DNA of 28,661 nt from positions 1 through 28,661 of the IMG/VR virus record IMGVR_UViG_3300017991_000329; one strand, written 5' to 3'. Under the pieces are notes generated by a model. That model was given only the letters and a program-made list of their open reading frames with translations. It searched no databases and was not told where the DNA came from. Position 1 is the first letter of the stretch, and each line of letters opens with the position of its first letter. Source of the stretch: a virus. A program made the position numbers and the translations under genes. Shown here piece by piece: positions 4,256 to 28,616 of the stretch.

Positions 4256-4286
4256 GGTGCTGACCCTATAGGGACGGGAGGGCAGG
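4256..4286 (+). promoter_or_regulatory. Shared intergenic element, copy 1 (candidate late promoter)
   Basis: GGTGC (4256-4260), four bases, CCTATA (4265-4270), ten bases, GGCAGG (4281-4286), then ATG 4287. The centre is a perfect palindrome, CCCTATAGGG. GGGAGGG (4276-4282) would serve as ribosome-binding site. Its parts and spacings match six other copies before + strand genes in this window. Promoter function is inferred. Confidence 0.6.
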
Positions 4287-5468
4287 ATGAGTATCGACTT
4301 CCAACTCGGCCACAGATGCCCTCACTTGGTCGTTGAAGAGCCCGTGAGCATCGGGGACGACCGCGTCTCCCTCATCACGAAGGCTCCCATCGCCTCCACC
4401 ACGTTGCTCCGTGTGCTGGCCAACAACGCCTACTACATCCCGTCGAATGGCCTGTACTCGCAGGCCATCCTCTACGGGGCGGGGTCGGGGCCCTTCCAGA
4501 TCGAGGGGTGTATCTCGGAGAACGGCCTCTCGGTGGACTCCAACGTGGTGACGGTGACGAGCAGCACGGAGTCCAAGACCTTCGCCCTCCCCATCGGTAA
4601 CCGCGTAACCACGGATGCCCTTGTGAGGGTGTTCCGGGCCAAGTTCACCGACATCATCGTTCTCAACGAGGACGGACACCTCGTGTTCATGGATGTCGCC
4701 AAGATCGGCCCGGAATCCAGGATCTCGATCTCGGGTCGGGGTCGGGATGCCATCGGGTTCGGCAACCAGTGGCGTGCGAAGGGGCAGGAGGTCTACCCGG
4801 CGTGGAGACTCAACTCCCGTGCGGACATCCTGCCCGTCGTCAACAGGGGACCTTACGTCTTCGACCACTCTCGCTACGTGCAGTTCGCACGTCCGGTGAA
4901 GCTCAACCCGACGTTCAAGGTGACCTACGCGGCTCCTCCGGAGAGGTGTCCTCGTTGTCGGGCGACGTTCGTCGAGAACGACTGGCGCTTCGACATCGAG
5001 GGTGAACTCATCACGGTCGAGAATGAGGATCTCCTCTACCAGGCGGCACTCAAGATCCTTCTGACGAGGATCGGGTCGAACCCGTACCACACGGCCTACG
5101 GTTCGGGGATCATCAACCGCATCGGGGCCAAGGCGGTGGGGGCGGTGGCGACACAGATCCAGGATGACGTTCGGACGGCCCTGTCCCGGATGCAGTCCCT
5201 CCAGAAGCAGCAGGCTCAGTACCAGAAGGTGTCCCTCAAGGAGCGCCTCTACTCGATTCTGTCTGCCGAGGTGTTCCCACACGACACAGACCCGACGGCG
5301 TTCCTCGTGGACGTTGTGGTGTCCAACGGGACCAACGAGCCTGTGCGGCTCTCCATCGTGTTCTCCGTACCGGGAGCCGTCGCCCTGGCTGGCACGAACA
5401 ATCTGACGCTGGGACTCGAGTCCACGGGTCTGACGGTTGAGGAGTCGAGAGAGGTATTCAACAGGTGA
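4287..5468 (+). CDS. Baseplate protein with gp25/W-like C-terminal domain
   Basis: 393 residues. Residues about 245-345 resemble the gp25/W family of baseplate wedge proteins: an acidic lead-in (ENEDLLYQAALKILLT), the RIGSNPYHTAYGSGI stretch that fits this family's conserved turn, then two helices and a beta-rich end. Typical W/gp25 proteins have only about 110-150 residues, so roughly 230 N-terminal residues are extra. They carry C11 (CPH), C75 and a CPRC pair at 221-224 just before the gp25-like part, which could bind a metal. In T4 and P2 this protein sits in the wedge that links the baseplate to the sheath. The J-like and I-like genes follow directly, matching the W-J-I order. The start is fixed by GGGAGGG just upstream and by the regulatory element ending at the ATG. 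Confidence 0.85.
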   Translation: MSIDFQLGHRCPHLVVEEPVSIGDDRVSLITKAPIASTTLLRVLANNAYYIPSNGLYSQAILYGAGSGPFQIEGCISENGLSVDSNVVTVTSSTESKTFALPIGNRVTTDALVRVFRAKFTDIIVLNEDGHLVFMDVAKIGPESRISISGRGRDAIGFGNQWRAKGQEVYPAWRLNSRADILPVVNRGPYVFDHSRYVQFARPVKLNPTFKVTYAAPPERCPRCRATFVENDWRFDIEGELITVENEDLLYQAALKILLTRIGSNPYHTAYGSGIINRIGAKAVGAVATQIQDDVRTALSRMQSLQKQQAQYQKVSLKERLYSILSAEVFPHDTDPTAFLVDVVVSNGTNEPVRLSIVFSVPGAVALAGTNNLTLGLESTGLTVEESREVFNR

Positions 5469-5472
5469 GCGC

Positions 5473-8400
5473 ATGGCCATCCTGACACCGAAGATCCTGG
5501 GTCCCGACGGCGTCCTCCGAGAGGACCTCGCCTTCAGCACGACCCGTGGGACGCGATTCTTCACCGGCACGATCGACGAGACCACCGTGGACCTCGAGGT
5601 GTCCATCAACGGTGCCGGGTGGACGAACGACGCCGACCTCTTCGTCTTCGAGGGCACCGAGTGGATGGTGCCCAACCCGGCGGCGTACCCTGCCGGGCTC
5701 GAGCTTCTCGCGGGACCCAACACCATCCAGGTCAGAGCTATCGCCCTGACGGGTTCCACCTCGGCTCCTGCCATGGCGGAAGTCACCCTGGTCCAGGAGT
5801 CCGATCTCGGGGTCGTCGCGGATCCCCCGACCAACATCAGCGTCACGCAGAAGGACGGCTCGGTTGAACTCAGCGTCGAGGGTCTCGAGGATTCCACGGG
5901 ATTCCAGGGGTTCAACTTCTACGCGAGCAAGTACGAGGGAGGTGGGGACTCCGGCTACCAGCAGATCAACCTCGAAACCGTCGCGGACAGCACCACGACC
6001 GAGGAGTTCGAGGAGATCGCAACCCTGGAGGTGGAGTCGGATGTTCCGGTGGACGGCAACGGAGATCCCCTGGCGGACCCCTTGTACTTCCACGTGGTCG
6101 GGACACAAGAGGACGAGGATGACGTCGTCCTCCAGACAGACATCGACGAACGGTACGAGGTCCCCGAGACGGCCCGCGAACTCCGGACCACGATGACCCT
6201 CGAGGCCGTTCGGACCATCCAGGTCTACAGCTTCGATCACGATCGGTTGGCGGGACCCACGAGTGACCCCCCCACGATCGCCATCGGGGAGTTCGCGGCG
6301 ACTCCACAAGAGGAGCCGCTCTACTACGTCATCACGTCGGTCTTCTACGACGAGACGAACAACCTGGAACTCGAGTCCTCCTTCTCCCAGGAGGTGGTGG
6401 GCCATCCTCTCCGCATCACGACATCCATCGGGAACTTCCCGGTCGTGAGCCGTCAGCAGATCGTCCGGGACTACGCGACCTCCGTGTTCCGCTCGAATCC
6501 ACAAGTGCGGGTGGAGGAGGGTTCCACCCTCCGGGACGTGACGATCGACCCCTTCTCGTCCGAGGCGGAGCGGGTCCGGTTCATCGTGGACTTCCTGCAC
6601 AGGGCCCGTTCGCCGTCCCTGCTCATCATCATCGATGACCCTCAGGGCACCGGGCAGTCGGCTCCTGTGGCGACGTCCTCGTACAAGCAGGCGCTGAAGC
6701 AGGCGTTCCGGCTTCAGAGTGACGAAGAGACCCAGGCGTTGATCGACTCTGCGTTCGAAGCCTACGCCTCGAACTACGGGGTGTTCCGTCGGACGGGTCG
6801 TGCTTCTCAGGGTGAGGTGACCTTCTACACGACGCAGAGGCCCACTCGGACCATCCAGTTGCCTCTCGGCACCATCGTGTCCGGGGGCTCCCGGCAGTTC
6901 AGGACGAGTCGGGCGGCTTCGCTGCCCCTCAACCAGATCGCCTCCTACTTCAACCCGGTGACGGGGCGCTATCAGGTGACAGTCCCGGTCCGGGCCACGG
7001 CGACGGGGTCGGCGGGGAACGTCGGAGCCGGTCAGGTTCGCCAGGTGGTCTCTGCTGTCGCGGGGATCTCGGTCATCAACTCGGCGGCGATGTTCGGTGG
7101 CGAGGACCGTGAGACCAACCAGCAGTTGATCGAACGGGCTCGGCGTCGCCTTGCCTCTGTGGACTCGGGGACGAAGCAGGGCTACCTGCAGACGGCGGCG
7201 GACGTTCCGGGTGTCATCAAGGCCAACGTGGTCGGAGCGGGTGACCCCCTCATGCAGCGGGACCTCGACTCCAGTGGGGTTCACCGGGGTGGCAAGGTCG
7301 ACATCTGGATCCAGGGGACGAACCTCGCCACGGTCACGGATGTCTTCGCCTTCTCCTTCGAGATCGGCCAGGACATCCAGTTCGAGATCATCGGTTCGGT
7401 GACGGGCCTCAACTTCGTCGCGGTGGACACCGAGTTGTCCGAGGCGAACCCCATCGTCGAGATGTTGGACTACCCGGATGCGGGCTACGAGTTCCGCAAC
7501 GCTTCCACAGGCGAGGTGTTCGACCTCACGGGCGTCACCATCACGGGCTACAACACCATCCAGCTCGACACCAGCATCCCGCAGCCAGCGGTGGACTTGA
7601 CGGACGTCGTCCTGGGCTCCTACCGCCGTCGGGTGGGCAACATCTTCATCCTGCCGCGTCAGCCCGTGACGGAGATCACGGGGGTGACGGGGGCGGTGTC
7701 AGGGCAGTTGCCTTCAACGGCCTTCGATCTGGTACATCCGGACCCGCCGCTCGAGAAGGGTCGGTCGGACCTGGCCGAGGACTACCTGCAGATCTCGTCC
7801 TACACGGACGATGACGGGAACACCATCCCCTCCGGAGACCTCATCACGGTCACGGACGAACCCCACGTCCTGCTCGGGGAGTACCCCGAGTACGTCGACA
7901 ACTTGGGGGCGGTGTTCCTCACCGTGGAGGTCTGGGACGAGACCAAGACCACGCAGTACCGAGGGCCCGACGACCCCAGCGGGATCTCGGACTACACCAT
8001 CATCCTGGGGGACCAGACGACGCCCCTCGCCATCCAGCGAACGACAGGGAGTGCCATCTCCAGTGGCGAGACCGTCCTGGTGAGCTACTCCCACGATGAG
8101 AACTTCTCCGTCACCTACACCACGAACCTCGTGGTGAGCGTCACTCAGGACGCTGTGAACACCCAGAGGCACGCAACGGCGGATGTCATCGTGAAGGACG
8201 CTGTGCCGGTTCCTCTCGATCTCCAGGCGACGGTGGTCCTCAAGAAGGGGGCGAAGCAGGAGGAGGTGGACCCGAATCTGCGGACGAACCTCACCAATTA
8301 CATCACGAACCTACGGCTGGGGGACCCCATCCGGCAGTCGGACGTGATCGACGTCATCGAGAAGACCACGGATGTCTCCTACGTCACGGTCCCCCTCACC

Positions 8401-8955
8401 AAGATGGTTCGCGGCGAGGGGTCCCAGGTGGTCCGCGAGACCCTCGTGTCGGATCTGGCGTCCGAGGTGGTGCAGTTGCCCTCGTTGTCCACGGGGTCCT
8501 ACCTCGTCTGGATCATCAAGGACTCCCTCTCAGCGGCCACGACAGATGGAGGCGGTCCGGACACCTCCTACCGGGGGGTCTTCGAGGATGACATCGAGAT
8601 GACGCTCCTGGATGCTTCGACGCAGTTGTCGGCCCTGGGGCTGGCGGACAACCAGGCGTACATCATCGGGGACGATGGGGCGGTCATCAACGGCTACTCG
8701 GATGACGCGACGCTCATTGCCGAGGGGTTCACGACCGACGCAGATCGCCAGGCTGAGAGGGAACGTCTGACGGCGAACCACGTCCTGGTGTCGCTGATCC
8801 CCAGCGACTCTCCGGTCGAGCACGAGTACGCGGTGACGTACATCGTGGGAGAGGACAGCGGAGCGAAGAACATCGACCCCGGTGCGGCGGAGTACATCAC
8901 GACCCCGACGAACATCAACGACTGGCTCTTCACCTATGACGAGGACAGCGCGTGA
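5473..8955 (+). CDS. Baseplate J-like protein with extended N-terminus
   Basis: 1160 residues from ATG 5473, four bases after the previous stop; AGGTGA just upstream is a modest ribosome-binding site. Residues about 435-610 match the Baseplate_J pattern: strands leading through LPLGTIVSGG, a GSAGNVGAGQV stretch, then GGEDRETNQQLIERARRRL and a TAADVPGV motif. Residues about 905-975 look like the J C-terminal part (PLDLQATVVLKKG, then a helix and DVIDVIEKT). Before the J core lie a beta domain (1-110), an FN3-like segment beginning PPTNISVTQKDGSVEL (about 118-230) and further beta material. P2 J has about 300 residues, so this is a several-fold enlarged form. J proteins, like T4 gp6, form the wedge ring of contractile tails. 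The stop overlaps the next start by 4 bases (GTGA). Confidence 0.9.
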   Translation: MAILTPKILGPDGVLREDLAFSTTRGTRFFTGTIDETTVDLEVSINGAGWTNDADLFVFEGTEWMVPNPAAYPAGLELLAGPNTIQVRAIALTGSTSAPAMAEVTLVQESDLGVVADPPTNISVTQKDGSVELSVEGLEDSTGFQGFNFYASKYEGGGDSGYQQINLETVADSTTTEEFEEIATLEVESDVPVDGNGDPLADPLYFHVVGTQEDEDDVVLQTDIDERYEVPETARELRTTMTLEAVRTIQVYSFDHDRLAGPTSDPPTIAIGEFAATPQEEPLYYVITSVFYDETNNLELESSFSQEVVGHPLRITTSIGNFPVVSRQQIVRDYATSVFRSNPQVRVEEGSTLRDVTIDPFSSEAERVRFIVDFLHRARSPSLLIIIDDPQGTGQSAPVATSSYKQALKQAFRLQSDEETQALIDSAFEAYASNYGVFRRTGRASQGEVTFYTTQRPTRTIQLPLGTIVSGGSRQFRTSRAASLPLNQIASYFNPVTGRYQVTVPVRATATGSAGNVGAGQVRQVVSAVAGISVINSAAMFGGEDRETNQQLIERARRRLASVDSGTKQGYLQTAADVPGVIKANVVGAGDPLMQRDLDSSGVHRGGKVDIWIQGTNLATVTDVFAFSFEIGQDIQFEIIGSVTGLNFVAVDTELSEANPIVEMLDYPDAGYEFRNASTGEVFDLTGVTITGYNTIQLDTSIPQPAVDLTDVVLGSYRRRVGNIFILPRQPVTEITGVTGAVSGQLPSTAFDLVHPDPPLEKGRSDLAEDYLQISSYTDDDGNTIPSGDLITVTDEPHVLLGEYPEYVDNLGAVFLTVEVWDETKTTQYRGPDDPSGISDYTIILGDQTTPLAIQRTTGSAISSGETVLVSYSHDENFSVTYTTNLVVSVTQDAVNTQRHATADVIVKDAVPVPLDLQATVVLKKGAKQEEVDPNLRTNLTNYITNLRLGDPIRQSDVIDVIEKTTDVSYVTVPLTKMVRGEGSQVVRETLVSDLASEVVQLPSLSTGSYLVWIIKDSLSAATTDGGGPDTSYRGVFEDDIEMTLLDASTQLSALGLADNQAYIIGDDGAVINGYSDDATLIAEGFTTDADRQAERERLTANHVLVSLIPSDSPVEHEYAVTYIVGEDSGAKNIDPGAAEYITTPTNINDWLFTYDEDSA

Positions 8956-10699: not shown

Positions 10700-11323
10700 T
10701 CAGGGGAAAGCGATGCGAGAGGCCCTCTCGAGGTCTGCCTGGACCTTCAACGCCGCTTCCTTGGCGGTCTTGGGGTCGTCGGTGAGGTTCCGCAGGATGT
10801 AGGAGGGGTGGTACGTCGCCACCAGAGGCACGGAGAGGCCCGACACGGGGTCTTCGAACATCCAGTCATGGTTCCGCAGGTATCCGACGGACTCGTCCAA
10901 CGCGTGCCCTGTCAGGGACGCTCCGGCCACACGCCCCAGGGTGACGATGACCTTGGGCCTCACGATCCTGAGTTGCATGCGGAGGAAGGGGGAGCAGGCG
11001 ACGATCTGCTCTCGGAGAGGGTCCGGATTCCCATGACCGGGCCAGCACTTGACGGTGTTGCAGATGTAGATGGGTCCATCCAGTGCTCTGATGAGGCCCA
11101 CCCGGCGGAGAAGCCCGTCGAGGACCTTCCCTGCTTTGCCGATGAACGGGATGCCCTCGGTGTTCTCTTCTCGACCGGGGGCTTCACCGACCAGGACGAT
11201 GTCGGCATCGGGGTTTCCGTCTCCGAAGACAACCTTGTTCCGGTTCCGGTGGAGGGCACAGCGACGACAGGTCTCCGCTCGAGATGCTCGCAGGTATTCG
11301 AGGTGGCTTCCGGAGTCCGGCAT
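10700..11323 (-). CDS. Family 4 (iron-sulfur) uracil-DNA glycosylase
   Basis: 207 residues, the usual length for this family. It removes uracil from DNA by cutting the base-sugar bond. Visible hallmarks: the GEAPG loop at 46-50 followed by REENTEGIPFIGKAG; the NTVKCWP segment at 89-95; and the YHPSYILR motif at 171-178 that contacts the flipped base and DNA. Four cysteines at 19, 22, 93 and 110 (CxxC, VKC, VACSPFL) match the 4Fe-4S ligands of family 4 enzymes. The start at ATG 11323 has GAGAGGG a few bases upstream. It is divergent from the first fibre gene and oriented against all the structural genes, so it is probably regulated separately, perhaps earlier in infection. Its job in the phage could be repair of deaminated cytosine in a GC-rich genome; that is inference. 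Confidence 0.93.
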   Translation of the reverse strand: MPDSGSHLEYLRASRAETCRRCALHRNRNKVVFGDGNPDADIVLVGEAPGREENTEGIPFIGKAGKVLDGLLRRVGLIRALDGPIYICNTVKCWPGHGNPDPLREQIVACSPFLRMQLRIVRPKVIVTLGRVAGASLTGHALDESVGYLRNHDWMFEDPVSGLSVPLVATYHPSYILRNLTDDPKTAKEAALKVQADLERASRIAFP

Positions 11324-11361: not shown

Positions 11362-11393
11362 GGTAGTGTCCCTATAGCTGCAGGACGGTAGGG
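11362..11393 (+). promoter_or_regulatory. Shared intergenic element, copy 2
   Basis: GGTAG (11362-11366), four bases, CCTATA (11371-11376), ten bases, GGTAGGG (11387-11393). It is the closest of the copies to the overall consensus. It lies between the divergent glycosylase and first fibre genes, 37 bases before the fibre ATG. CTATAG at the centre is palindromic, but the flanking blocks point toward the fibre gene. Confidence 0.65.
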
Positions 11394-11413: not shown

Positions 11414-14400
11414 ATGGCTGCGAGAATCCAGAGCCTGCGAAACGGCATCACTCCTATCAATGAACTGAGCCGTGACGACCTCGTGGCTGGGGACATCGTC
11501 ACCGTCACGTCCCTCGATGCGGCCACCACGTACAACTGGGCCATCGCGTTCGCACCGGAGGGTTCGGCGGCGACCTTCTCTGGGAGCGCCACAGCGGTCA
11601 GCCCTGGGACCTTCACGGTCGACCTTGTGGGACCGTACCTCATCAAGCTCACCGTAGACGTGGGGCTTGCGAGTGAGGACACGCAGTACGTCCGTCTCCG
11701 TGCCTTGACGACGACTCTCGGTCTTCACCTTGTGGCGGCGGGGGAGCGTCGGGACGGCACCGGCATCATCCCGGTGGACGTGGATGCCGAGGGGTGGGCG
11801 AACGAACAGAACGCCAACCTCTTGGCACTTGAGGCGGCGGCTTCGGCCAACACCCTGGCTGCGGTCCTGGCGGTCGGAAACGTCACGGGCGGCACCGACA
11901 TCGTGATGACCACGGGGGATGAGATCGTCGGTCAGACCGACGTCGTCATCCGGTCCACGGGGGCGGGCACCAACATCGACCTGTATCCGGATGCCGCCGG
12001 AGAGGTCATCGTCAATGGCAAGCTGAGAGTCACGGGCCTGATCGATCCCACGGGGTTGGTGTTCGATGAGGAAGATCCGGCGAACGTTCCGACGGGGGCG
12101 AACAAGGGAGCGATCTTCGTCCATGACGGCTCCGGGGCACCTGCTGAACAGGGCAAGCTCTACTTCAAGGATGCTGCTGGGGCGACCACTCCTGTGGGGG
12201 CCGGGACTCTGGCGGCGACGCTGGCGCTCGGGAACGAGACGGGTGGCTATCCCATCGTCGGGGATGCGAATCCGGGCCCCGGCATCGGCCCCGGTTCGCC
12301 TGTCATCATCCGAGGTGGTGACCCCTACTTCCCCGGCCCGGTGCCGCCGGGATACGGTCGGGGTCCTGTTCAGTTCAGTGAGATCGGCAACCCCCGTGGG
12401 GAGGCGGCGGTTGACCTTCAGATCCACAAGGGGCCTTACGCTCCAGGGGCAACGGTGGCCTCGGGTCAGATGTCCTCTATCGCGGGGGGTGGCCTCAACA
12501 CAGCCTCGAGCCACTTCTCGCACGTTGCGGGCGGCTACAACAACACAGCTTCGGGACCCTACTCACACGCCGAAGGCAACTACTGTCAGGCGAGTGGACA
12601 AGGCGCACACGCAGAGGGCTGGTTCACTCAGGCGGCGGGGGATTTTTCTCACGCAGAGGGGCAGTACAGCTACGCCACCGGCGAGGGTGCCCATACCGAG
12701 GGCGTTCGGACCTACCTCCAGTACCAGGGGAACATCAACACCTATGCCAACGGAGATGGGACGCATGCGGAGGGTGCGGGCAGTCGGGTCAACTTCGGCG
12801 CTCCCGCCGCTCTTGGCACCCACGCAGAGGGCTACGGGACGTTGGCTCGTGGCAAGGGGGCGCACGCTGAAGGCTCCGGCAAGGGTTTCTTCGGTCGTCC
12901 CCCATCCTTCCGGAGCAGTGTGGCCTACGGAGATGGGGCGCACGCGGAGGGGTTCGCCACCTCTGCGGGGTACCTCGGGGGCATGTACAGCCCGCCTGTG
13001 CAGGCGGATGCTTCCCACGCCGAGGGCTACATCACAAGGGCGTTTGCCAAGGCGGCACACGCCGAGGGGTACTACTCGTCGGCTTGGCAACCCGGAGCGC
13101 ACGCGGAAGGTCGGTCATGTTCCGCAGGAAGTGCGTATGCCCCCTACGGAGACGCTGCACACGCCGAGGGGTCAGGAACGCAGGCCCAGGGGGACTACTC
13201 CCACGCGGAGGGAGTCAACACCCACACGTCCGCGACTGCCGTTGCGGGGCACGCCGAGGGTTCCGGGTGTCGCGTCTACGGGGCTCACGCCCACGTCGAG
13301 GGGGGTGGGTCACGGTCCTGGGCTGACAACAGCCACGCGGAGGGCTACAGCCGGGTCTTGTACGGTGCTGAGTGGGGCCATTCAGAGGGTCGTTCCACGG
13401 AGGTCTATGCACAGGCGGCACACTCCGAGGGCGCGTTCACCGATGCCACCGGCTATGCGGCCCACTCCGAGGGTCACTGGACCACGGCTCAGGGAGCCTA
13501 CTCCCACGCGGAAGGTCACGGGCAGGCCAACGCCAACCGCAATCTGGCCTCCGGCATCGGCTCCCACGTCGAGGGCTACTACACCACGGCCTCCGGCGAC
13601 TACGCCCACGCGGAGGGGGAGGGAAACTACGCCCTCTATCTGAGGGTCACAGCATCCGGTGATGCGTCCCATGCCGAGGGGGGCGCGACGACGGCGAGCG
13701 GATGGGCCTCTCACGCGGAAGGAGAACGGACGACAGCTTCCGGTGGGAAGGCACACGCCGAGGGGTTCCTGACCCAGGCGACCCACGACGCCTCCCACGC
13801 TGAAGGCCAGAGCACTATCGCGGGCCAACTTGCGGCACACGCCGAAGGTCTGAGCACGCAGGCCACCCAGATCGGTGCCCACGCCGAAGGACGCGACACC
13901 GTCGCTTCGGCCACCTACGCTCACGCCGAGGGACGCGGCACCACGGCCTCTGCCGACAGGGCTCATGCGGAGGGGTTCAGCACCAAGGCGTATGGCAACA
14001 ACAGCCATGCCGAGGGTCGTCTTACCACCACCCACCCCTACGCGGCCTCGAGTCATGCCGAAGGGGACTCGACTGAGACGGGGGTGGCGACTGGGTTCGG
14101 CATTCACGCCCACGCAGAAGGGGGTGGATGCAGGGCCATCGGTAACCAGAGCCACGCCGAGGGGAACACCACCGTCGCCTACGGGGTGGGTTCGCACGCC
14201 GAAGGCGGGAACACCCAGGCGGGCTATCAGTACGCGGTGGGGGACTATCGGGGGAACCAGAACCACGCTGAGGGGTGGGACACCTACGCCAAGGCGTTCG
14301 CCTCGCACGCCGAGGGGTGGACTTCCGGGGCATACGGGGATCACTCCCACGCCGAGGGAAACTCAAAAGCCTATGGTGCGGACTCCCATTCTGAGGGTGC

Positions 14401-16523: not shown

Positions 16524-16555
16524 GTTGCTCGTCCTATAGCCCCAGGAGGATAGAC
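16524..16555 (+). promoter_or_regulatory. Shared intergenic element, copy 3
   Basis: GTTGC (16524-16528), four bases, CCTATA (16533-16538), ten bases, GATAGAC (16549-16555). It lies in the gap after the sulfotransferase, 33 bases before the second fibre ATG. The outer blocks are looser than in copy 2, but the spacings are identical. Confidence 0.55.
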
Positions 16556-19500: not shown

Positions 19501-21485
19501 TCAATACGGCTCTCAGCCCTGGCAAACCAGCCGGGCCTCCTGTCATGAGGGTCGACCGCACCCTCCAAACCGTGTACCTGAGGTGCCGGGACTCGTTGCT
19601 GACGGGTCAAGGACCCGGTGTCCCCGGTATCAATGTCGTGAACAACACGCGGTTCCGGATCACCTTCCAGGGCAACAGCCAGCTCGCGGCTGACACGCTC
19701 CAGAGTGACGCGCTCTCGACCTTTGACCTGGCATGGTCCAACGCCTCGTCAGTGCTCAACCTCACACAGCCGCTTTGGGCGGGGGCATTCCCTCCGATCA
19801 TCCTCTACTACGACACCGCCGCGAGGGTGGACTACAGCAACGCCGTCTCGGGCCTTGTTGCCACCAACGTCCAGGACGCGATTGATGAGGTTGCCGGTGG
19901 CCCCGGCTCGATCACCGTCAACGATGAGGGCATCCTGGTTGACGCCAACACGACCACCCTGAACTTCACGGGTGCGGGGGTCACGGCCTCGGCGGGGGCT
20001 CCGGGCACGGTCAACGTCAGCATCCCCGGTGGCGGCGGTGCTGCGAGCCTCGCAGCCACGCTTGGGGTCGGCAATCAGACGACGGGCATCGCCATCCAGT
20101 CCGACGGTGCGGGCAACGCACGCGGAACGGACGCCCTCGACCTCCAGCAGTCTCGCACCGTGGCGACCCAGGTGGCCTCGGGCAACAACTCGATGGTCCG
20201 AGGCATCAACAACACCGCGAGTGGTCTGAGGTCCTCGGCCTGTGGTGAGGGATGCACTGCAAGTCAGATCAACGCCCACGCCGAGGGTCGCAACACGACG
20301 GCGAGTGGTCCGCATTCGCACGCAGAGTGCTTCGGCACGACCGCCCAGGGGTTCGCCTCCCATGCGGAGGGTCTCAACTCCACCGCCTACGGCTACTACT
20401 CCCATGTCGAGGGTCAGAGTTGCTACGCCAACAGCAAGGCGTCGCACGCCGAGGGCTACTTCACCTCCGCCGGTGTTTACGGGGTCAACGACTACGGGCA
20501 GCACTCGGAGGGACGACAGACACAGGCCATCGGAGCGTACTCCCATGCGGAGGGGAGACAGACACAAGCACATGGAGAAGCGGCGCACACCGAGGGGGGC
20601 ACCAGCTCCTACGGCACGTTCGCCTACGGGGACGCCTCTCACGCCGAGGGTGAGAACACCTTTGCGGTGGGGGACCTTTCCCACGCAGAGGGTTCGTTTT
20701 CCACAGCCTCTGGAACGGCAGACCACGCCGAGGGTAGCTCCTACGCGAATGGCGGGGCGGCTCATGCCGAGGGTGCAGGTTGTCAGGCGATTTCCCTCAA
20801 CGCCCACGCGGAGGGGGCCAACACGACAGCCTCTGCCTATCAGGCACACTCTGAGGGGCTACTCACGCAGGCCACGGGGCTTCGTTCGCACGCTCAGAAC
20901 AGGAACACCATCGCCGCAGGGGAGAACTCTCACGCCGAGGGCTACAACGCCTACGCGAACGCACTCAACGCTCACGCTGGTGGAAACTCTTCGCTGGCGG
21001 ACATCGAGGGTCAGTTCGTCCGTGCCGTCGATTCCGCTTCGACGGGGGCTTCCCCTCGTGGCACGAGCCAGTGGAGCAACTTCTCCTGTCGGGCGGAGAC
21101 ATCGAACAATTTCCCCACGAACATGCTCCCGTTCCTCGTCCTGCGGGACAACCACGCCTACGCCTTCCGCATCATGCTCACCGGGAGGAGTCGGGCGGGG
21201 GCCGGGCCCGGAGACACGGCCTACTGGTACGCCGAAGGCTTCATCAAACGTGGCGTCGGTGTCGCCTCCGTGACCTTCGGTCCAGCGGGTGTGCTCAACT
21301 TCGCGGGGGCGGGAGCGGGAGCGTACCAGACCCCCATTGATGCTGACGCGGGTGCAGCGGCATGGGGTGGGATCAGCATCACGGCGAACGTCGGGAACGG
21401 CTCCCTCACGATCTCGGTGACGGGCCTCGCGGGAGAGACCATCGTCTGGCACGCCCGCATCATGACCAGTGAGGTCGGAGACTAG
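16572..21485 (+). CDS. Giant tail fibre with beta-helix and HAEG repeats, paralogue 2
   Basis: 1637 residues from ATG 16572, chosen over GTG 16566 because TGGAGG lies five bases upstream of the ATG. Residues 1-125 match the PKD-like N-terminus of fibre 1. Residues about 150-440 look like a right-handed beta-helix of the pectin-esterase/lyase type (FDTIQAGIDYAVAQG, RPGEYVEDVVF, then Gly/Thr/Asn-rich rungs). Motifs of the kind GISAENVQDAIDEV at about 460 and SGLVATNVQDAIDEV at about 1090 mark common phage-fibre joints. A middle part includes the GLIDPTGL motif shared with fibre 1. Residues about 1234-1470 hold about 17 HAEG units. The C-terminal 165 residues are the recurrent phage-fibre beta domain ending WHARIMTSEVGD, as in fibre 1. 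Likely a trimeric host-recognition fibre; enzymatic activity of the beta-helix is possible, but no catalytic residues can be assigned. Confidence 0.88.
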   Translation: MSAIIESLRNGGSSVVGASRDDLQVGDIITLDSVDVATTYGWTMAYQPEGSTATFSGSTVAKSPGTFTVDKEGPYLVRLTVDYGLATESTQYVRLRYLTELGSLKLVAAGENNDGSTPWPIPVDNTPDGWADAQNFNLLTLLGLTKGALASGRITYVDSDPAYGEFDTIQAGIDYAVAQGASFSTPWVVAVRPGEYVEDVVFKPFAHVIAWPGSVPDQNVVRISGTTGHTTLLAAGGETVILRGLSLTSSDPTSTVLTKSGSGEIWIDKCFLHHLSAVGTEGPALAMQAGTAQVYDSYLQGAIGGGLTDRYAFTQSAGITNFYRTQFFGPSGCDFAGGSRATLTDCQVTAVGAAGAYGISSLSSGLTLEYCRVSAVASGDAFLVNPAGTGYAGNVSATLRWTYIGGEIYFDTNGIVGTTNLYVGSCEYTDFNFPTGTPATNEATTKSTSLFYDNTSTGISAENVQDAIDEVHALAVAVQTLDDAYDGGVGGGVGRTIIADAGAVQVVDGAVPSDPPDVDNPNGRIQVVGGVEVGSIDKSEILLDPNPYGNGPFIEMGQAVWPGNAPFGGTSFVLARSTGTPLFRNYNLRIGTQSTDGGGDVGRVIVRGGDGIQSGTTPNAAPVVLQGGSSTDAGVTPGDVVLLPGTVPGTEGSVFVASLAGATGASVTAAGVFVGGVTGIIRFGTDTGAIEVSIAAADNLAAVQGKFNSTGVVTAAGDPITLTTNSLGPGAEIYFLNDDQGGALDTALGQFDGQPMVQGGVSNVVPLTATGGFELTIGLGGPAPLVYNAVTGKLTVPGLIDPTGLNMVQTPDAALPNQTLFVSDGASIPAGHAGYKDDVGVVHDLQVGGGGGFVNPAPEKFVFRPGGVATDNVYTNWATMMAAVGAAAGRKEIVIDPSLGPPTVPVGVWDLTDTVLTDGRLDAPPTEGVGTQTRTPLFFVDGAQITNCHMIANLDINGPATGVTEAVLVDFSPMILLNTALSPGKPAGPPVMRVDRTLQTVYLRCRDSLLTGQGPGVPGINVVNNTRFRITFQGNSQLAADTLQSDALSTFDLAWSNASSVLNLTQPLWAGAFPPIILYYDTAARVDYSNAVSGLVATNVQDAIDEVAGGPGSITVNDEGILVDANTTTLNFTGAGVTASAGAPGTVNVSIPGGGGAASLAATLGVGNQTTGIAIQSDGAGNARGTDALDLQQSRTVATQVASGNNSMVRGINNTASGLRSSACGEGCTASQINAHAEGRNTTASGPHSHAECFGTTAQGFASHAEGLNSTAYGYYSHVEGQSCYANSKASHAEGYFTSAGVYGVNDYGQHSEGRQTQAIGAYSHAEGRQTQAHGEAAHTEGGTSSYGTFAYGDASHAEGENTFAVGDLSHAEGSFSTASGTADHAEGSSYANGGAAHAEGAGCQAISLNAHAEGANTTASAYQAHSEGLLTQATGLRSHAQNRNTIAAGENSHAEGYNAYANALNAHAGGNSSLADIEGQFVRAVDSASTGASPRGTSQWSNFSCRAETSNNFPTNMLPFLVLRDNHAYAFRIMLTGRSRAGAGPGDTAYWYAEGFIKRGVGVASVTFGPAGVLNFAGAGAGAYQTPIDADAGAAAWGGISITANVGNGSLTISVTGLAGETIVWHARIMTSEVGD
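20274..20985 (+). repeat. HAEG coding repeat array, about 17 units
   Basis: Same 14-residue unit as in the first fibre, but a third as many copies. Degenerate units (AHTEG, SHAEC, SHAQN, AHAGG) occur in it, mainly at the edges. The repeat differs enough at DNA level that the two arrays are not recent copies. Confidence 0.88.
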
Positions 21486-21488: not shown

Positions 21489-21520
21489 GGTAGTGGTTTT
21501 ATCGGCCCGCACCTGTAGGA
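21489..21520 (+). promoter_or_regulatory. Shared intergenic element, copy 4
   Basis: GGTAG (21489-21493), four bases, TTTATC (21498-21503), ten bases, TGTAGGA (21514-21520). The outer blocks and spacings match; the central hexamer differs at three positions from CCTATA. The last block doubles as the ribosome-binding site of the giant gene at 21528. Confidence 0.5.
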
Positions 21521-21527: not shown

Positions 21528-24500
21528 ATGCCCTCACCGCCCTACGGCGTGTTCCCGCCCACAACGCCACCCACCATCGGGTACGGCGGACTGGGCTACG
21601 GCCATGGTCGCTACGGAAGCGGCTCTGCGCCTCGGGAGCCCTACCCCGTAACCGGTGGTTACGGTGGTCAGCAGTACGGCTACAACCCCTACGGGTCCAT
21701 CGACACCACTCCTCCTCGGGTTTCCTCGGCTCTGAGCCTCGACGGTTTCCGAGTTGAACTCTTCTTCTCGGAGGAGATGCGGAACAACGCCGCCTTCACG
21801 GACCCGGCCAACTACACCTTTGCCACGACGATCGGAGCCCCCCTCACAACGGTGAGTGTGACTCCGGGCACTCCGGGCACCTTCGGCGGCTACACCTCGG
21901 TCATCATCACCCACACGGGGTCAACCCTCGGTGGGGACTACATCGTCACGGCGAGTGGCATCGAAGACCTGGCAGGGAACCCGATCCTCCCGGCTCCAGC
22001 CAGTTCCGCACAGTTCCTGGCCCTCGGGGACACCGCACAGGTGGAGATCACCCCGACCTCCGCTGACACCATCGAGTTCCAGTACAAGACCTCGGCGGGT
22101 GCTACCCAGGACATGCTGACGGAGGCGGAGTTCTCGCCGGGTATCACCGACGCCTCCAACTACTCGTACACGACGACGTACCCGATCCCGATCGTCGTCT
22201 CGAACTACCAGCATCCCTTCGGGGGTGACGCCTCCAAGGTGCAGGCCGACGTCGAGAACATGACCTCGGCCTCCTACGACGCTGTCGTGGGGCCCTCCCT
22301 GGCGTTCGACTACGTGGGGGATGTCCTCCCGTCGGCGGACCCGAACTTCAACGGCGTGGAGTTCGGTACAGGGTCCTCGACGGCCTCTGCAGGTACGGGA
22401 CTCCTGCTGACGAAGTCGAACCCCAACATCTACGGGTGGTTCTTCGAGGACACGTCCGGCAGGGTTCTTCCGGCGAGTTCCCACCGGGTCGACTTCACCT
22501 TCGATGCCTCGGCGGCGATCTACTCCCCACCCCTGTACAACACGGCTCTGGGAACCCTCTCCTTCTCGGATGGGGCGGTCCAGATCAACGTCACGCTCAA
22601 CCGTGTTGGCGGGACGGACGTCCTGGATGTGACCTCGGGGGCCTTCTCGGCTCAGGTGCCTGCTGCTTGGTCATCGGCCCCGATGACGATCAGCGTCCTC
22701 CGCAACCAGAAGGCGGACTCCTACGCGGTCCTCGTGAATGGCACCCCCCTCGTCTCGGCTCTGACTGCGACATTCGGGGGTCCCATCACCATCTCTCCAG
22801 GAGCGTCCTTCCTCCTGGCGGCGACGTACACGGTCACGCAGTTCAAGATCACCGAGGTGAAGATCACCTCGAGCCAGACGATCTTCACGACGGCCTGGAA
22901 CTTCCTCCACCAGATCTCGGCACCGTTCACGGGCTCCCCGGCAGGTGCGAACGACCGCATCCTCACGAAGCGAGGCCCGCTGACGAAGGGGTGGGGAGAC
23001 GCCACCCCGGCGACCAAGCAGGACGTCGAGGTCCGCATCAACGGGACCCCCGTCGCGGTCAAGGGGGTCAACCCCTACACGGGGACCATCTTCCCCGAGG
23101 TCCCCATCCCGCTGACGACGCCAGGGACGGTGTCAGTCGAGGTCGACTACAAGTGGTTCCCGGCCCCGGTGATGCCCCTGGTGGCACTCAACACACCGGG
23201 ACTCGTCCTGAACAAGTGGGACCAGCCGCGAGGACACACCGCAGGGGCGGTGTCCCCTTCCCCTCCGGGACACGAAGGGGTCGTCGACCCATCCCGCTTC
23301 CCGATGGCTGTGGGCCTCATGCCCCCCACGAGACCACAGCCCATCGAGATCGGCCATCGGTACATCGGGTTCGAGCGCGACTACTCCGCCCTGTTGAACT
23401 CGCCCACGACGCTTCTCCTCAACATGGACCCCCACAGAGTTTCGCGTCCGTACCTCGAGACTGACTGTGTGGAGTTCGCAACGACCTTTGACGGGACTAC
23501 GACACCCCAGTTGGCGGAAGATCCATGGTCCCTGAACGGAACTGATTCCGGCGGAGTTGTTGGGGATGGGACGTATCGGGTCATCGATGCGTCGGCGGGG
23601 AGCTACGCGACGGGTGAGGCGGCTCTCTACTACAGGGTGGAGAGTCTCGACTGTGACAGCACCATCCGACTTGGGGCTCGCCTTCAGGTAGAGGAATGGG
23701 TGGCAGACGGCGTCTTCACGGGCGTCGGGTTCGGTTTCCACGACAACTACCGGCTCTACTTGGTCGGCCTCCTCGAGGTCAACGGGCTCCGACACATCGG
23801 CATGCTCCTCAACGAGGAGACCCCGCACCTTCAGGACTCCTGGAGGATCGGACCCTCCGCCACGGGCACGATCGTCGACGAGAACACCATCACGTTCGAC
23901 GTCGATGACTTCCCTCAGAACATCGACACGGGTTCGCAGTTCCAGATCCTCGATGGGTCCCAGACGGGCGTCTACACGATCGCCACCTGTGGCATCGACA
24001 TCTACCAGGGCACCGTCACCGTCACGATCGAGGAGGAGTTCCCGGCTGACCCCGACCTGTACGGCAACGACACCGCGATCGTCTACTTCGAGACCCCATG
24101 GGACGAGGAACTCACCACGTTCCGGGTGGAGGCCCGCGTCGCAGAGGACGACGCGGACAGGAGCGCCACGGTCTACATTGGGGGCTCCCTGTCCGGCGAG
24201 GCGGTGGTCCTCGAGGGGACGGAACTCGCGTCCATCCCGGCGGGCACGTCGCTCTTCATCCAGGAGGGTGAGGAGAGTCGGTTCCTGTGGGGTTCCGTCA
24301 GCCGCATCGCCACGAACTCGACCATCTGGTCCTTCGACAGGTACTCGAGCACCCCCGACGCCGTCATCGAGTCCCTCCGAGGTCTGGTGGTCGCAGCAGA
24401 GATGTCGGACCCGCCGGAGGAGGACTCAAACCACGAGTGGTGGAAGTGGGGCGGCTTCGGCTATTCGCTGATCGACTCGTCGGGCGACACGCTCCTGCTC

Positions 24501-26966
24501 AAGAGCACCTCGGGTTCCAGCAACATCGATCTCACCTACGGGTACGGGCGCTTCGAGCCGGTCTTCAACCGCCGGGTCTTCTGCGACTGCGACGCCGAGT
24601 TCCAGATCGACAGCGGCATCCTCGGAGCCGGGGATGCCACCGTCCGAGTCGCGGACGACCTCCGTGAAGTCCGACTGACCAACATCCTCTACAGGGAAGG
24701 ATTCGTCACCGGGGACTACCGACGTCTGGCGTCCATGGCATCGATCTCCCTCTCGGGTCTCATGACCCCAGCCGAACAGGGATGGGTGGCCTCCACCTCG
24801 TCTGGGATGCCCACGGCTTCGGCTCAGAACCAGTGGGTCACCATCACCAAGGCCAACGGGGAAGAGGGCTGGTGGAGATCGGCCCTGACCCTCGGGGACG
24901 ATGACTCCGGGGGCCGGATCTTCGAAGCTCGTCTTGCGGTCACCTCCTACACGGCGGGTGCTGGGGGCGAGGTTGGCCCCATGTGGGGCGCGAACGTCGG
25001 CTCTGGGGCCCTGACCTACCATCTACGGGCGACGTTGAAGGACGGCCCGGCTAGGGTGGTCCTGACGGACGGGACGGGGACCGAGCACGGCTCCTTCGCC
25101 TTCGATTGGACGGACGGGGAGTTCCACACCTACCGAGTGCTCGCAGATCCCACGGTGGGGACGGCAGTCCTGGTCGTGGATGATGTGGTCCAGGGGTCGG
25201 TGCTCCTGACGGCGTTCGCTTCCTCGCTCAACGATCGCTTCGTCAGGATGGGGGTGATGGAGACTGACGGGGCCTCGGTGTCCGTCTGGGACTCCTTCAA
25301 CGTCACGACGTTGCCGGTCTCGTCGGTCAAGCGGACGCTGGGTGTCTACACGGGCCTTCCGGGCACGGGTGTCGACGACATCAACTCGTACAAGCTGCCG
25401 AGGACGGATGGCACGGACGAGCCGAACAGCACGGTGTCGGCGGTCATCGAGGAGTGGGACTGGACGAGTCTTCTCCGGGTCAGGGTCCACCTCGACCAGA
25501 CGTGGGGTGTCTCGATCTACCGTCCGGACCTTCCGCCTCCGCCGTGGTTCACGGGGGACTTCGCCACCCAGATCACGGATCCGACGGCGGCATGGATCAA
25601 CGTCGAGTACCCGAGGATTCCTCTGGCCCAGGACATGAAGTCCTCGGTGATGTTCGGGTCCCTCGACTCGCGTTCGATCACGCAGCAGCGGTGGAAGCAG
25701 GTTCGGTACCGGCTCTACAACACGCCGACCGAGGACTACATCCAGCCTCAGGGGATGGTCCTCAACCGCTACAACGTCATCCACTCGGGCGAGTTCAACG
25801 TCGACATCACCCCCGAGGTGGTCACGGTCACCTCCCTGACCTCGACGACGGTGTCCATCCGGTCGGCCCACATGAACGCGGACCGGATCTTCAACGTGGT
25901 CGTCGACGGCTCCGTCGTCCCCTCGACGACGTGGACCTTCGACGAGGACACGCAGATCATCACGTTCTCGAGTGCGCTCCCGTCGGAGCAGTACCCGGTC
26001 ACCGTCACGTTCGCTCCGGCCAAGCCGGTCACCGAGACCTACGTCTGCAGTCAGCCGTTCGAGGCGTCCGTCACCAAGCTCAACGAGGACACGCCCCCGT
26101 ACCCGATGAGCCAGACGGCCACGGCGACGAGTCAGGTCGTGTTCGGCTCGAAGCTCAACGACCCCTCGGATGTGCTCGGGGACCCGGACTTCATCCTCAA
26201 CGACCCGTACAGGACGGTCGAGTGGTCCGACCCCGAGGGGGCCGAGTACGACTGCCTCAAGTTCTGCGAGGTGGACAACGGCGGCGAGCGGGGGATGCTC
26301 TCCATCGCCTGCGACGGCCCGGCTCCGGAGAACGGCCTCATCGGGCTCGAACTCGATGGGACGATGGGAGCCTACTGGGATGTCTTCTCGGTTCCGGGAG
26401 GGCCCGCAGGACCGTGGGGCAACGGGTCGCCGGTCATCGGAGGCACGCAGGCACAGTTCGATCAGTTGAACCCCGGCATCATGCACTGGAGCGGGGGCAA
26501 CCTGAACACGGACGGGACGTGGGGGCCCGGAACCTCGGTCTGGTATCCGAACTATCCCGGTGAGGGTCAGCAGGGGAACTACGACAGCCCGGCGGCACAG
26601 CAGGGGATGGGCCTCAACCAGGAGGTCTTGTTCGCCCTGGTCGTGGCGACCCCCTACGAGGACGTCTGGGATGTTCCGAGCGTCTGGGACGACAACGTGC
26701 CCCCGTCGTCGCCCGACCCCACGACGGACCCGAATCCCGATGGGACACCGGGCCTTCAGAACCACGGGGCTTGTGCTGCTCGGCTCGTGGACTACGCGGG
26801 TCCGGCGGCGGCGGATCGTTGGGGTCCCTGGGGTGGTCTCGACTCCCTCCAGCAGTCGCTGTGGGGCGGTGGGGCTCCGTTGACGGGTGACGAGTTCACC
26901 TGGAACGGTGGCGCGGTGGTGCCGGGGCCGACGACAACGGACTTCCAGATCGAGGCGGCGAACTAG
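21528..26966 (+). CDS. Giant multidomain tail protein, 1812 aa
   Basis: Starts at ATG 21528 with GTAGGAG 6 bases upstream. The first 65 residues are Gly/Tyr/Pro-rich (YGGLGYGHGRYGSG), a low-complexity tract. Next comes an SbsA-type bacterial Ig-like domain at about 65-165 (TPPRVSSALSLDGFRVELFF, closing with EDLAGNPI). Two or more jelly-roll, concanavalin/LamG-like segments appear around 250-450 and 1085-1265 (HLRATLKDGPARVVLTDG, EFHTYRVLADP). Other parts are beta-rich and unassigned. The final 350 residues are rich in Gly, Pro, Trp and Asp and hold most of the protein's cysteines outside the middle. No protease or lysozyme motif is seen. Size, carbohydrate-binding-like folds and position after the fibres suggest a tail-tip or baseplate-decorating adhesin. 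The element at 21489 gives it its own transcription signal. Confidence 0.85.
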   Translation: MPSPPYGVFPPTTPPTIGYGGLGYGHGRYGSGSAPREPYPVTGGYGGQQYGYNPYGSIDTTPPRVSSALSLDGFRVELFFSEEMRNNAAFTDPANYTFATTIGAPLTTVSVTPGTPGTFGGYTSVIITHTGSTLGGDYIVTASGIEDLAGNPILPAPASSAQFLALGDTAQVEITPTSADTIEFQYKTSAGATQDMLTEAEFSPGITDASNYSYTTTYPIPIVVSNYQHPFGGDASKVQADVENMTSASYDAVVGPSLAFDYVGDVLPSADPNFNGVEFGTGSSTASAGTGLLLTKSNPNIYGWFFEDTSGRVLPASSHRVDFTFDASAAIYSPPLYNTALGTLSFSDGAVQINVTLNRVGGTDVLDVTSGAFSAQVPAAWSSAPMTISVLRNQKADSYAVLVNGTPLVSALTATFGGPITISPGASFLLAATYTVTQFKITEVKITSSQTIFTTAWNFLHQISAPFTGSPAGANDRILTKRGPLTKGWGDATPATKQDVEVRINGTPVAVKGVNPYTGTIFPEVPIPLTTPGTVSVEVDYKWFPAPVMPLVALNTPGLVLNKWDQPRGHTAGAVSPSPPGHEGVVDPSRFPMAVGLMPPTRPQPIEIGHRYIGFERDYSALLNSPTTLLLNMDPHRVSRPYLETDCVEFATTFDGTTTPQLAEDPWSLNGTDSGGVVGDGTYRVIDASAGSYATGEAALYYRVESLDCDSTIRLGARLQVEEWVADGVFTGVGFGFHDNYRLYLVGLLEVNGLRHIGMLLNEETPHLQDSWRIGPSATGTIVDENTITFDVDDFPQNIDTGSQFQILDGSQTGVYTIATCGIDIYQGTVTVTIEEEFPADPDLYGNDTAIVYFETPWDEELTTFRVEARVAEDDADRSATVYIGGSLSGEAVVLEGTELASIPAGTSLFIQEGEESRFLWGSVSRIATNSTIWSFDRYSSTPDAVIESLRGLVVAAEMSDPPEEDSNHEWWKWGGFGYSLIDSSGDTLLLKSTSGSSNIDLTYGYGRFEPVFNRRVFCDCDAEFQIDSGILGAGDATVRVADDLREVRLTNILYREGFVTGDYRRLASMASISLSGLMTPAEQGWVASTSSGMPTASAQNQWVTITKANGEEGWWRSALTLGDDDSGGRIFEARLAVTSYTAGAGGEVGPMWGANVGSGALTYHLRATLKDGPARVVLTDGTGTEHGSFAFDWTDGEFHTYRVLADPTVGTAVLVVDDVVQGSVLLTAFASSLNDRFVRMGVMETDGASVSVWDSFNVTTLPVSSVKRTLGVYTGLPGTGVDDINSYKLPRTDGTDEPNSTVSAVIEEWDWTSLLRVRVHLDQTWGVSIYRPDLPPPPWFTGDFATQITDPTAAWINVEYPRIPLAQDMKSSVMFGSLDSRSITQQRWKQVRYRLYNTPTEDYIQPQGMVLNRYNVIHSGEFNVDITPEVVTVTSLTSTTVSIRSAHMNADRIFNVVVDGSVVPSTTWTFDEDTQIITFSSALPSEQYPVTVTFAPAKPVTETYVCSQPFEASVTKLNEDTPPYPMSQTATATSQVVFGSKLNDPSDVLGDPDFILNDPYRTVEWSDPEGAEYDCLKFCEVDNGGERGMLSIACDGPAPENGLIGLELDGTMGAYWDVFSVPGGPAGPWGNGSPVIGGTQAQFDQLNPGIMHWSGGNLNTDGTWGPGTSVWYPNYPGEGQQGNYDSPAAQQGMGLNQEVLFALVVATPYEDVWDVPSVWDDNVPPSSPDPTTDPNPDGTPGLQNHGACAARLVDYAGPAAADRWGPWGGLDSLQQSLWGGGAPLTGDEFTWNGGAVVPGPTTTDFQIEAAN

Positions 26967-26977: not shown

Positions 26978-27009
26978 GGTAGCCGTCCTATCCGAGCCGA
27001 GGGGTAAGG
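26978..27009 (+). promoter_or_regulatory. Shared intergenic element, copy 5
   Basis: GGTAG (26978-26982), four bases, CCTATC (26987-26992), ten bases, GGTAAGG (27003-27009). It fills the gap after the giant gene, 34 bases before the next ATG. The spacings are identical to the other copies. Confidence 0.6.
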
Positions 27010-27026: not shown

Positions 27027-27668
27027 ATGAGAGTACTCAAGGAACGTATGTCGAGGGCACGCGACGCCTTCAAGATCGCCTGCGGCATCCTGTTCGGGGA
27101 CGATTACCCGACCCACAAGGTCCGAGGGGACGTGTCCATCAAGATGCACGATGCCTCGAGCGGGAAGCTCCTCTACGAGTGGGAGCGCCGGAACCTGATC
27201 GTCTACGATGCGTCGATCCAAGCCGCACGGTACTTCAAGGACAAGGACGAACCCGCGAACAGCCTCAACATGCTGGCCGTCGGTACGGGCGCTACGGGGG
27301 CGATCCTCTCCCCGGACGCACCGGACCCCCGGCAGCGGAAGCTCAACGCGGAGATCGCCCGCAAGGCGTTCGCCTCGACCACGTTCAGGGACGCCTCTGG
27401 GAACGCCGTCGCCATCCCGACGAAGATCGTCGACTTCACCACGACCTTCTCGGAGGCCGAGGCGGTCGGGCCGCTGAATGAGATGTCCCTGATGTCGACG
27501 ATTTCTTCGAACCCGCTGGTGACGAACCCGAACCCCAACGCCTTTCCCACCTACGACACGACCGTCGACGTCTCCTTGTACGACGTGATCGTCAACTACC
27601 TGACCTTCCCGGTCATCTCGAAGCCCAGCACGGCGATCCTTACGGTAACCTGGCGCTTGACCTTCTAG
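27027..27668 (+). CDS. Putative virion structural protein, 213 aa
   Basis: Starts at ATG 27027, chosen because TTGGAGG lies about 5 bases upstream; GTG 27009 falls within the regulatory element. After a basic N-terminal helix (MRVLKERMSRARDAFK), the rest is beta-rich. A pattern of the type VSIKMHDASSGKLLYEWERR-NL, a central GTGATG turn and a terminal strand AILTVTWRLTF resemble small tail-associated proteins seen in many phages, in which the last strand is conserved. No enzyme motif is visible. It is downstream of the giant protein and has its own copy of the shared element. The specific role is unknown; accessory tail or fibre protein is the best reading. Confidence 0.75.
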   Translation: MRVLKERMSRARDAFKIACGILFGDDYPTHKVRGDVSIKMHDASSGKLLYEWERRNLIVYDASIQAARYFKDKDEPANSLNMLAVGTGATGAILSPDAPDPRQRKLNAEIARKAFASTTFRDASGNAVAIPTKIVDFTTTFSEAEAVGPLNEMSLMSTISSNPLVTNPNPNAFPTYDTTVDVSLYDVIVNYLTFPVISKPSTAILTVTWRLTF

Positions 27669-27944: not shown

Positions 27945-27965
27945 GACAGAGGTGTTAGCTCTGTC
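27945..27965. terminator. Hairpin between convergent genes
   Basis: GACAGAG (27945-27951) and CTCTGTC (27959-27965) form a perfect 7-bp stem with a seven-base loop, placed between the stops of two converging genes. There is no clear T-run on either side, so termination is possible but not proven. Confidence 0.45.
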
Positions 27966-28203
27966 AGCGAACGCCTCGAGTCTCCCGTTCGGCCTTGACC
28001 CGTCTGTAGATGACGTTCCGATCGACACCCAGGGCGAGGGCCAGCTTCCACTGGGGGATGTCGTGTTCCTCCATCAGGTCGATGAGGATGGCTCCGGAGA
28101 TCGGGTAGATGCCCTTCGGGACGGTGTCCTCGTTGCAGACTTCGAGGGCGGACGCGAAGACGATCAACGACCCGATCATGTGGACATTGAGGTAGGGGGC
28201 CAT
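27964..28203 (-). CDS. Small helix-turn-helix protein, possibly 5'-truncated
   Basis: 79 residues from ATG 28203. Residues about 48-70 (DIPQWKLALALGVDRNVIYR) have the pattern of a helix-turn-helix: Q-x-x-L-A-x-x-L-G-V, then a basic recognition helix ending RRVKAERETRG. The first 45 residues are hydrophobic and helical. It could bind DNA as a small regulator. No ribosome-binding site precedes this ATG, and coding-like G/C-rich third positions continue upstream in the same frame, through an amber TAG at 28224-28222. A good start signal sits at 28292 in another frame. The gene may therefore be a broken version of a protein of about 100 residues, or start by another route. It is antisense to the late genes. 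Confidence 0.65.
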   Translation of the reverse strand: MAPYLNVHMIGSLIVFASALEVCNEDTVPKGIYPISGAILIDLMEEHDIPQWKLALALGVDRNVIYRRVKAERETRGVR

Positions 28204-28292
28204 CTCGAAGAGCTTGACGGCCTAGGTCGTGAGTTCCTCGTAGTCCCAGTCCTCGACGAGACAGACTCTCTTGCTCGCGTTCCTGGCCATGG
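28204..28292 (-). pseudogene. Probable displaced 5' end of the helix-turn-helix gene
   Basis: ATG 28292 follows an excellent AGGAGGAG site (28303-28296). It reads MARNASKRVCL and then, in the same frame, a low-quality Ser/Arg tail to a stop at 28176. One base back, in the frame of the helix-turn-helix gene, the sequence reads VEDWDYEELTT, then TAG at 28224-28222, then AVKLFE into the ATG at 28203. Third positions are G/C-rich in the first frame up to about 28260 and in the second frame after it. A two-base change in the GAGAGA tract near 28258-28263 plus one amber codon would explain this. It may instead be an independent 38-residue gene. Confidence 0.4.
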
Positions 28293-28349
28293 GCTCCTCC
28301 TGGCTGGCCTCATCCTACCCCGACGACGCTGTCCTGAACCCCCCTCGCC
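28293..28349. other. Gap between divergent small genes
   Basis: A short stretch between the minus-strand start at 28292 and copy 6 of the shared element. Apart from the minus-strand ribosome-binding site (28296-28303) I see nothing definite in it. Confidence 0.4.
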
Positions 28350-28381
28350 AATAGCCCCCCTATACCTGGCGTTGGGCAGGC
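28350..28381 (+). promoter_or_regulatory. Shared intergenic element, copy 6
   Basis: AATAG (28350-28354), four bases, CCTATA (28359-28364), ten bases, GGCAGGC (28375-28381). It lies 36 bases before ATG 28401. The exact central hexamer and spacing make it a good match. Confidence 0.6.
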
Positions 28382-28400
28382 AAGAGGAGTCTGTGAGGTC

Positions 28401-28589
28401 ATGTGCGGGTGTAGGAGGTCTGTCCGAGCAGCGCAGACAGCGGCCACGAAGGCGGCAGCGTCGCCTTCTCGGTCGGGGTCCTCGTCATCCACCAGTTCCT
28501 CGTCGGGATCGGTCAAAGCCCCGAAGAGTTCCTCGGGACGAGTTCCGGTACATCGACGTGGAATCTGGGCTTCGGGGCGGCGGCGGTAG
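28401..28589 (+). CDS. Small Ser/Arg-rich protein, 62 aa
   Basis: Reads from ATG 28401; GAGGAG at 28384-28389 is 11 bases upstream. It begins MCGCRRSVRAAQ, has a low-complexity Ser tract in the middle (SGSSSSTSSSSGS) and a basic end (GIWASGRRR). Small Cys-Gly-Cys-starting, disordered basic proteins occur in other phages, but I cannot give a function. It has a shared element in front, and its TAG stop lies inside the GGTAG block of the next one, so the region is tightly packed. An overlapping acidic frame on the other strand (28516-28310) has only a TTG start and no good ribosome-binding site. I favour this + strand reading with moderate confidence. Confidence 0.5.
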   Translation: MCGCRRSVRAAQTAATKAAASPSRSGSSSSTSSSSGSVKAPKSSSGRVPVHRRGIWASGRRR

Positions 28590-28616
28590 CCGCCCTATAG
28601 GGATACGAGGGTAGGG
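28585..28616 (+). promoter_or_regulatory. Shared intergenic element, copy 7
   Basis: GGTAG (28585-28589), four bases, CCTATA (28594-28599), ten bases, GGTAGGG (28610-28616). All three blocks match copy 2 exactly. CCCTATAGGG at the centre is palindromic, as in copy 1. It lies about 42 bases before a likely GTG start at 28642. Confidence 0.65.

Follow-up and report, generated by a model that had tools for sequence, protein, structure and literature searches.

A recurrent three-block intergenic element as a candidate core promoter in a group of huge phages

The window analysed here (i.e., the whole 28,661-base IMG/VR virus contig IMGVR_UViG_3300017991_000329) carries in almost every intergenic gap a three-part signal common to dozens of related huge phages. 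From comparison of these genomes, the element is rather likely to be a phage-specific core promoter for the middle and late genes of one huge-phage group, with host RNA polymerase redirected and a conserved tandem sigma-region-4 protein as the main factor. Under this proposal, the second block (B, CTAT) would be a -10-like melting box, the first block (A), one helical turn upstream of B, would stand in place of a -35 box, and transcription would start between B and the third block (C), leaving C within the first transcribed bases. Its reader is probably the RNA polymerase of the host, diverted by phage factors; chief among these would be the tandem sigma-region-4 protein, whose gene usually adjoins that of a NusG-like protein.

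Huge phages are abundant and almost all uncultured, and little is known on how their genes get switched on. In a large group of them, transcription units would be marked by this sequence signal, which also points to two widely conserved proteins (the tandem sigma-region-4 protein and the NusG-like protein) with a role that can be tested in vitro. Its A-B spacing and its putatively transcribed third block appear to match none of the promoter classes known to us. Literature searches returned no description of this three-part element, and promoters are mentioned by Al-Shayeb et al. as CRISPR targets only (PMC7162821).

The window and its copies of the element

A DNA-level search of annotated phages with the window gave no match. 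At the protein level, the 1,172-residue product of positions 5437-8955 is 44% identical over 99% of its length to a protein of LR745208.1, an uncultured phage of 485 kb, and its counterpart in more distant phages is annotated as a baseplate wedge protein. The gene at 4287-5468 matches baseplate wedge families and is gp25-like. A profile of the 1,172-residue protein retrieved 80 viral loci, several of them on contigs of 100-450 kb. Given these baseplate protein matches and large-contig loci, the window is taken to be a virion-gene stretch of a huge-phage group, for which the baseplate genes point to contractile tails. A sulfotransferase gene (15607-16518, + strand; PF13469, E 3.8e-16) lies amid the tail genes.

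The pattern GGTAG-N4-CCTATA-N10-GGYARG, which has 17 specified positions in blocks A, B and C, was scored along both strands. With at most two mismatches it occurs five times on the + strand and never on the - strand, against 0.005 occurrences expected from 200 dinucleotide-preserving shuffles of the window, and each of the window's five CCTATA words on that strand (4265, 11371, 16533, 28359 and 28594) is part of an element. The sequence-only reading had listed seven gaps with the three blocks in register, and this was borne out, as was the invariance of the spacings, which are 4 and 10 bases in all seven copies. The two copies at 16524 and 21489 are degenerate in block A or block B.

Two copies, both on the + strand as are all the others, are free of mismatches: the one at 11362..11392 (GGTAG-TGTC-CCTATA-N10-GGTAGG), ahead of the gene at 11414-15331, and the one at 28585..28615 (GGTAG-N4-CCTATA-N10-GGTAGG), ahead of the ORF at 28642. 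The copy at 26978..27008 (GGTAG-N4-CCTATC-N10-GGTAAG), ahead of gene 27027-27668, has one mismatch. Two mismatches are found at 4256..4286 (GGTGC-N4-CCTATA-N10-GGCAGG), ahead of gene 4287-5468, where block C abuts the ATG, and at 28350..28380 (AATAG-N4-CCTATA-N10-GGCAGG), ahead of the ORF at 28401. The degenerate copies keep the same spacing: that at 21489..21519, ahead of gene 21528-26966, has GGTAG, a degenerate block B (TTTATC) and TGTAGG (four mismatches), and that at 16524..16554, ahead of gene 16572-21485, has a degenerate block A (GTTGC), CCTATA and GATAGA (five mismatches). An eighth copy, absent from the earlier list, precedes the gene at 652: it lies at 605..635, is degenerate (GTGAT-TCGT-CCTATG-N10-TGTAGA; six mismatches in the 17 positions) and again has the same spacing.

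Among + strand genes of the window that follow gaps of at least 20 bases, the small ORF at 27702 alone is without an element, in line with the earlier statement that nearly all real + strand gaps carry one. A minus-strand gene within the + strand virion cluster (10700-11323, - strand), 64% identical to a relative in L009, is without a recognisable element. In a second minus-strand ORF (27970-28290, - strand), which has a helix-turn-helix-like C-terminus, the reading frame is broken by a TAG at about 28222-28224, although TAG is the stop of other genes in the window; this ORF may be a decayed gene, a case of readthrough or a sequence error.

Recurrence and anatomy in related huge phages

In many relatives, with GC contents of 45-65%, CTAT with CGGT at the same distance is found ahead of the orthologues of gene 4287. 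The exact word GGTAGN5CTAT occurs 29 times in G001, a relative of 297 kb, versus once in its reversed sequence; the counts are 12 versus 0 in G008 and 5 versus 0 in G013. Random scatter inside genes, which had been named as evidence against the element, is not seen in G001, where the occurrences are mostly intergenic and just upstream of genes. A trained matrix yielded 70 sites in G001 at a threshold passed by two control sites. Many sites, on either strand, stand 25-45 bases ahead of a start codon, and the element precedes a large share of the genes of this genome. "Late only" proved too narrow a description, since in G001 the element also stands ahead of a UvrD-type helicase gene. The PHROG/Pfam annotation of the element-led G001 genes is mostly blank. 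The same genome holds a 3,819-codon ORF for a very large protein at 155169-166625 (L099 15169 to L100 6625).

Across 1,432 upstream regions of this phage group, 20.5% of the CTAT anchors have CGGT exactly 11 bases ahead, with other offsets at about 1% or less, and GTAG-like words follow CTAT at +16 in 14.6% and at +17 in 9.0%, versus a background of about 2%. A strict A-B search found 126 elements in 59 records (i.e., in at most 126 of the 1,432 upstream regions). Hence, other promoter types or looser copies of the element must also exist. The exact long pattern was found in only three contigs when searched over viral contigs, because the copies vary. In a distant group with a diverged tandem sigma-region-4 protein, the element was found in none of 51 regions, which weighs against the proposed reading.

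The consensus from the group is CGGTAG, 4-5 bases, (C)CTAT(A/C/G), 10-11 bases, G(G)T(A/G)(G/A). The A-B distance is as rigid in the relatives as in the window, while 10 or 11 bases separate B from C. The G001 type has CGGTAG as block A, with T as its best-conserved base, and most other relatives have CGGTG or CGGTT; block C in the relatives is RGTRRG. Given this variation in blocks A and C, CGGT and CTAT are the most conserved bases of the element.

The earlier description of a recurrent, oriented and promoter-like signal that is not of the sigma-70 kind is supported by these alignments. In an alignment of 55 sites of G001 that begins 50 bases ahead of A and reaches into the gene that follows, no column is conserved beyond blocks A and B, the weak C block excepted, and the -35 hexamer that sigma-70 promoters have some 17 bases ahead of the -10 box is lacking. 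CTAT(A) is the most conserved part, which agrees with the proposal of CCTATA as a -10-like box, but it is not the TANNNT hexamer of sigma-70, as the bases after CTAT are not conserved. The absence from block B of the T at the last -10 position, which primary sigma factors need, counts against the promoter reading.

Block C keeps its distance to block B within about one base, and its distance to the start codon has a standard deviation of 12.8 bases. Ribosome-binding sites sit on block C or downstream of it, from which we infer that transcription should start upstream of C, between B and C; this agrees with the earlier placement of the third block inside the expected leader. A role for block C as a Shine-Dalgarno sequence in general was rejected, since it is positioned relative to B and not to the start codon. 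It was likewise rejected as a -10 box, given that ribosome-binding sites often lie on or just after it and the start must be upstream.

Stop codons of upstream genes often lie within block A, so the element fills the whole gap. Moreover, two elements face away from each other between one pair of divergent genes, and their A blocks are only 9 bases apart, too close for a separate promoter to lie upstream. This single clear case argues for A-B as the promoter proper rather than as a site lying behind a different promoter.

Candidate readers of the element

The sequence-only reading had named a phage sigma factor or a phage RNA polymerase as possible readers. For the former there is now a sigma-like candidate; the latter found no counterpart, as no RNAP beta subunit was matched in 12 large relatives, with all controls positive, and no PF00940 match (single-subunit RNAP) was obtained in nine large relatives, with the control genomes silent as well.

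The search for sigma region 4 led to a protein of about 200 residues with two tandem region-4-like domains, present in most large relatives. Its profile matches 78 viral loci and, in 84,980 bacterial and archaeal genomes, only three contigs, all metagenome-assembled. In its AlphaFold2 model (pLDDT 80), the first domain matches sigma factor region 4, and the best viral structure matches are the sigma factors of SPO1-like Bacillus phages (BigBertha and Goe8). The window fragment (28,661 bases) is without this gene. No sigma region 2 protein common to the group was found, with matches in G003 and G010 only, where a region 2 sigma factor is encoded in addition (L150 16544-17326 and L164 4779-5531). 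LR745208.1 has two tandem sigma-region-4 paralogues, at 153886-154695 (+ strand) and 419691-420284 (- strand).

In at least 58 of 75 loci, the tandem sigma-region-4 gene is adjoined by the gene of an NGN-KOW protein. This protein is NusG-like by profile (NusG over nearly its full length, 3e-5) and by structure (model pLDDT 93; NusG-like match with E 1.8e-9), and an RfaH-ops complex is among its structure matches. It is present in G001, in G003 and in a 485-kb LR745208-like record (L227, L177 and L238). In many loci the tandem sigma-region-4 gene is followed by the gene of a conserved protein of about 105 residues (L186 10619-10930 and equivalents), often behind its own element.

The tandem sigma-region-4 protein is thus a good candidate reader, linked to the element by co-occurrence in the genomes of one lineage. 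A further proposal, which we regard as speculative and rather unlikely, is that one signal couples initiation and elongation through this phage-encoded pair. The tandem sigma-region-4 protein would bring the host's core polymerase to A and B. As the polymerase leaves, the NusG/RfaH-like protein would load on the GGTAG/GTRR of block C (or A) exposed on the non-template strand. If true, each middle and late transcript would be both started and made processive by a single pair of phage proteins.

Rival readings and known systems

The main rival to the promoter reading is an ops-like recruitment site, with the promoter proper elsewhere upstream. CGGTAG corresponds to bases C3-G8 of the RfaH recruitment site ops (GGCGGTAGCGTG), those which RfaH needs: changes at G4, G5, A7 and G8 abolish its action, and changes at C3 and T6 reduce it (PMC5995543). 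Block A has this core in G001 and in some of the window copies, and with the gene of a NusG-family paralogue beside that of the candidate regulator, in the same genome, the resemblance may be more than coincidence. However, ops is a pause site inside a transcribed leader with a conserved TG, and here the columns behind block A do not keep the pause-inducing TG (positions 11-12 of ops); a CTAT box at fixed spacing follows instead. An ops-like site would leave blocks B and C and the rigid spacing unexplained, and does not fit the CGGTG or CGGTT of most relatives. Since nothing is conserved upstream of A, where the promoter would sit, and the divergent elements leave it no space, we consider this reading unlikely. 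It is also improbable that A and B are operator half-sites, 10 bases apart, for a phage helix-turn-helix regulator (e.g., the tandem sigma-region-4 protein) that activates or represses another type of promoter there. CGGTAG-N5-CTATC is in part an inverted repeat whose half-sites are spaced by one helical turn, and the protein has two helix-turn-helix domains, but the symmetry remains partial, the paired columns are without compensating changes, no other conserved promoter signal surrounds the element, and a large share of the G001 genes is preceded by it.

The ability of CTAT to pair with (G)GTAG on either side would allow a leader hairpin, A-B or B-C, acting as a processing or translation signal. 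Such an RNA-level element is very unlikely: mutual information of the columns that would pair does not leave the range of the shuffles, the outer B-C pairs show C-A mismatches as often as C-G pairs, and the start codon does not set the place of block C. Covariation being absent, the hairpin was rejected. The promoter of a T7-type single-subunit RNA polymerase, whose start is TATAGGG, had been suggested by the core CCTATAGGG, which does resemble it in two copies. This suggestion was not supported: the core, and with it GGG, is found in only two of the seven window copies and is not conserved in relatives. The lack of PF00940 matches in the nine large relatives also speaks against such a polymerase, weakly when taken alone given the silent controls, and we regard this reading as extremely unlikely.

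With regard to known phage systems, the promoter reading has partial parallels. In phages of the SPO1 type (gp33/gp34), phage sigma-like proteins replace the host sigma for late genes, as is proposed here, but the two boxes of SPO1 late promoters keep the usual -35/-10 distance, whereas A and B are only 4-5 bases apart. The phiKZ/AR9-type phages likewise combine very large genomes with genome-wide phage-specific promoters (PMC5312081), but these are read by phage multisubunit RNA polymerases, of which the 12 large relatives showed no beta subunit. In an overview of jumbo-phage sigma and gp33 factors, in which NusG is unmentioned, group 2 phages use sigma-like factors and no RNAP (PMC7824862).

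Like T4-type late promoters, the element has a short -10-like box of its own kind ahead of late genes and no -35 box; a host polymerase redirected by small sigma-like and co-activator proteins of the phage would be a further parallel, with the tandem sigma-region-4 and NusG-like proteins as candidates. T4 late promoters are served by gp55, gp33 and the sliding clamp, which redirect host RNA polymerase to the box TATAAATA in a replication-coupled manner. In T4 this box stands alone, whereas here CTAT comes with CGGT(AG) at a fixed distance ahead of it and GTRR behind it, and the candidate factor has two sigma-region-4 domains. The box TATAAATA itself is not found in the element, whose consensus at this place is CTAT(A/C/G). 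A clamp-loader gene stands a short way upstream of the candidate reader gene in G001, which recalls the replication-coupled system of T4.
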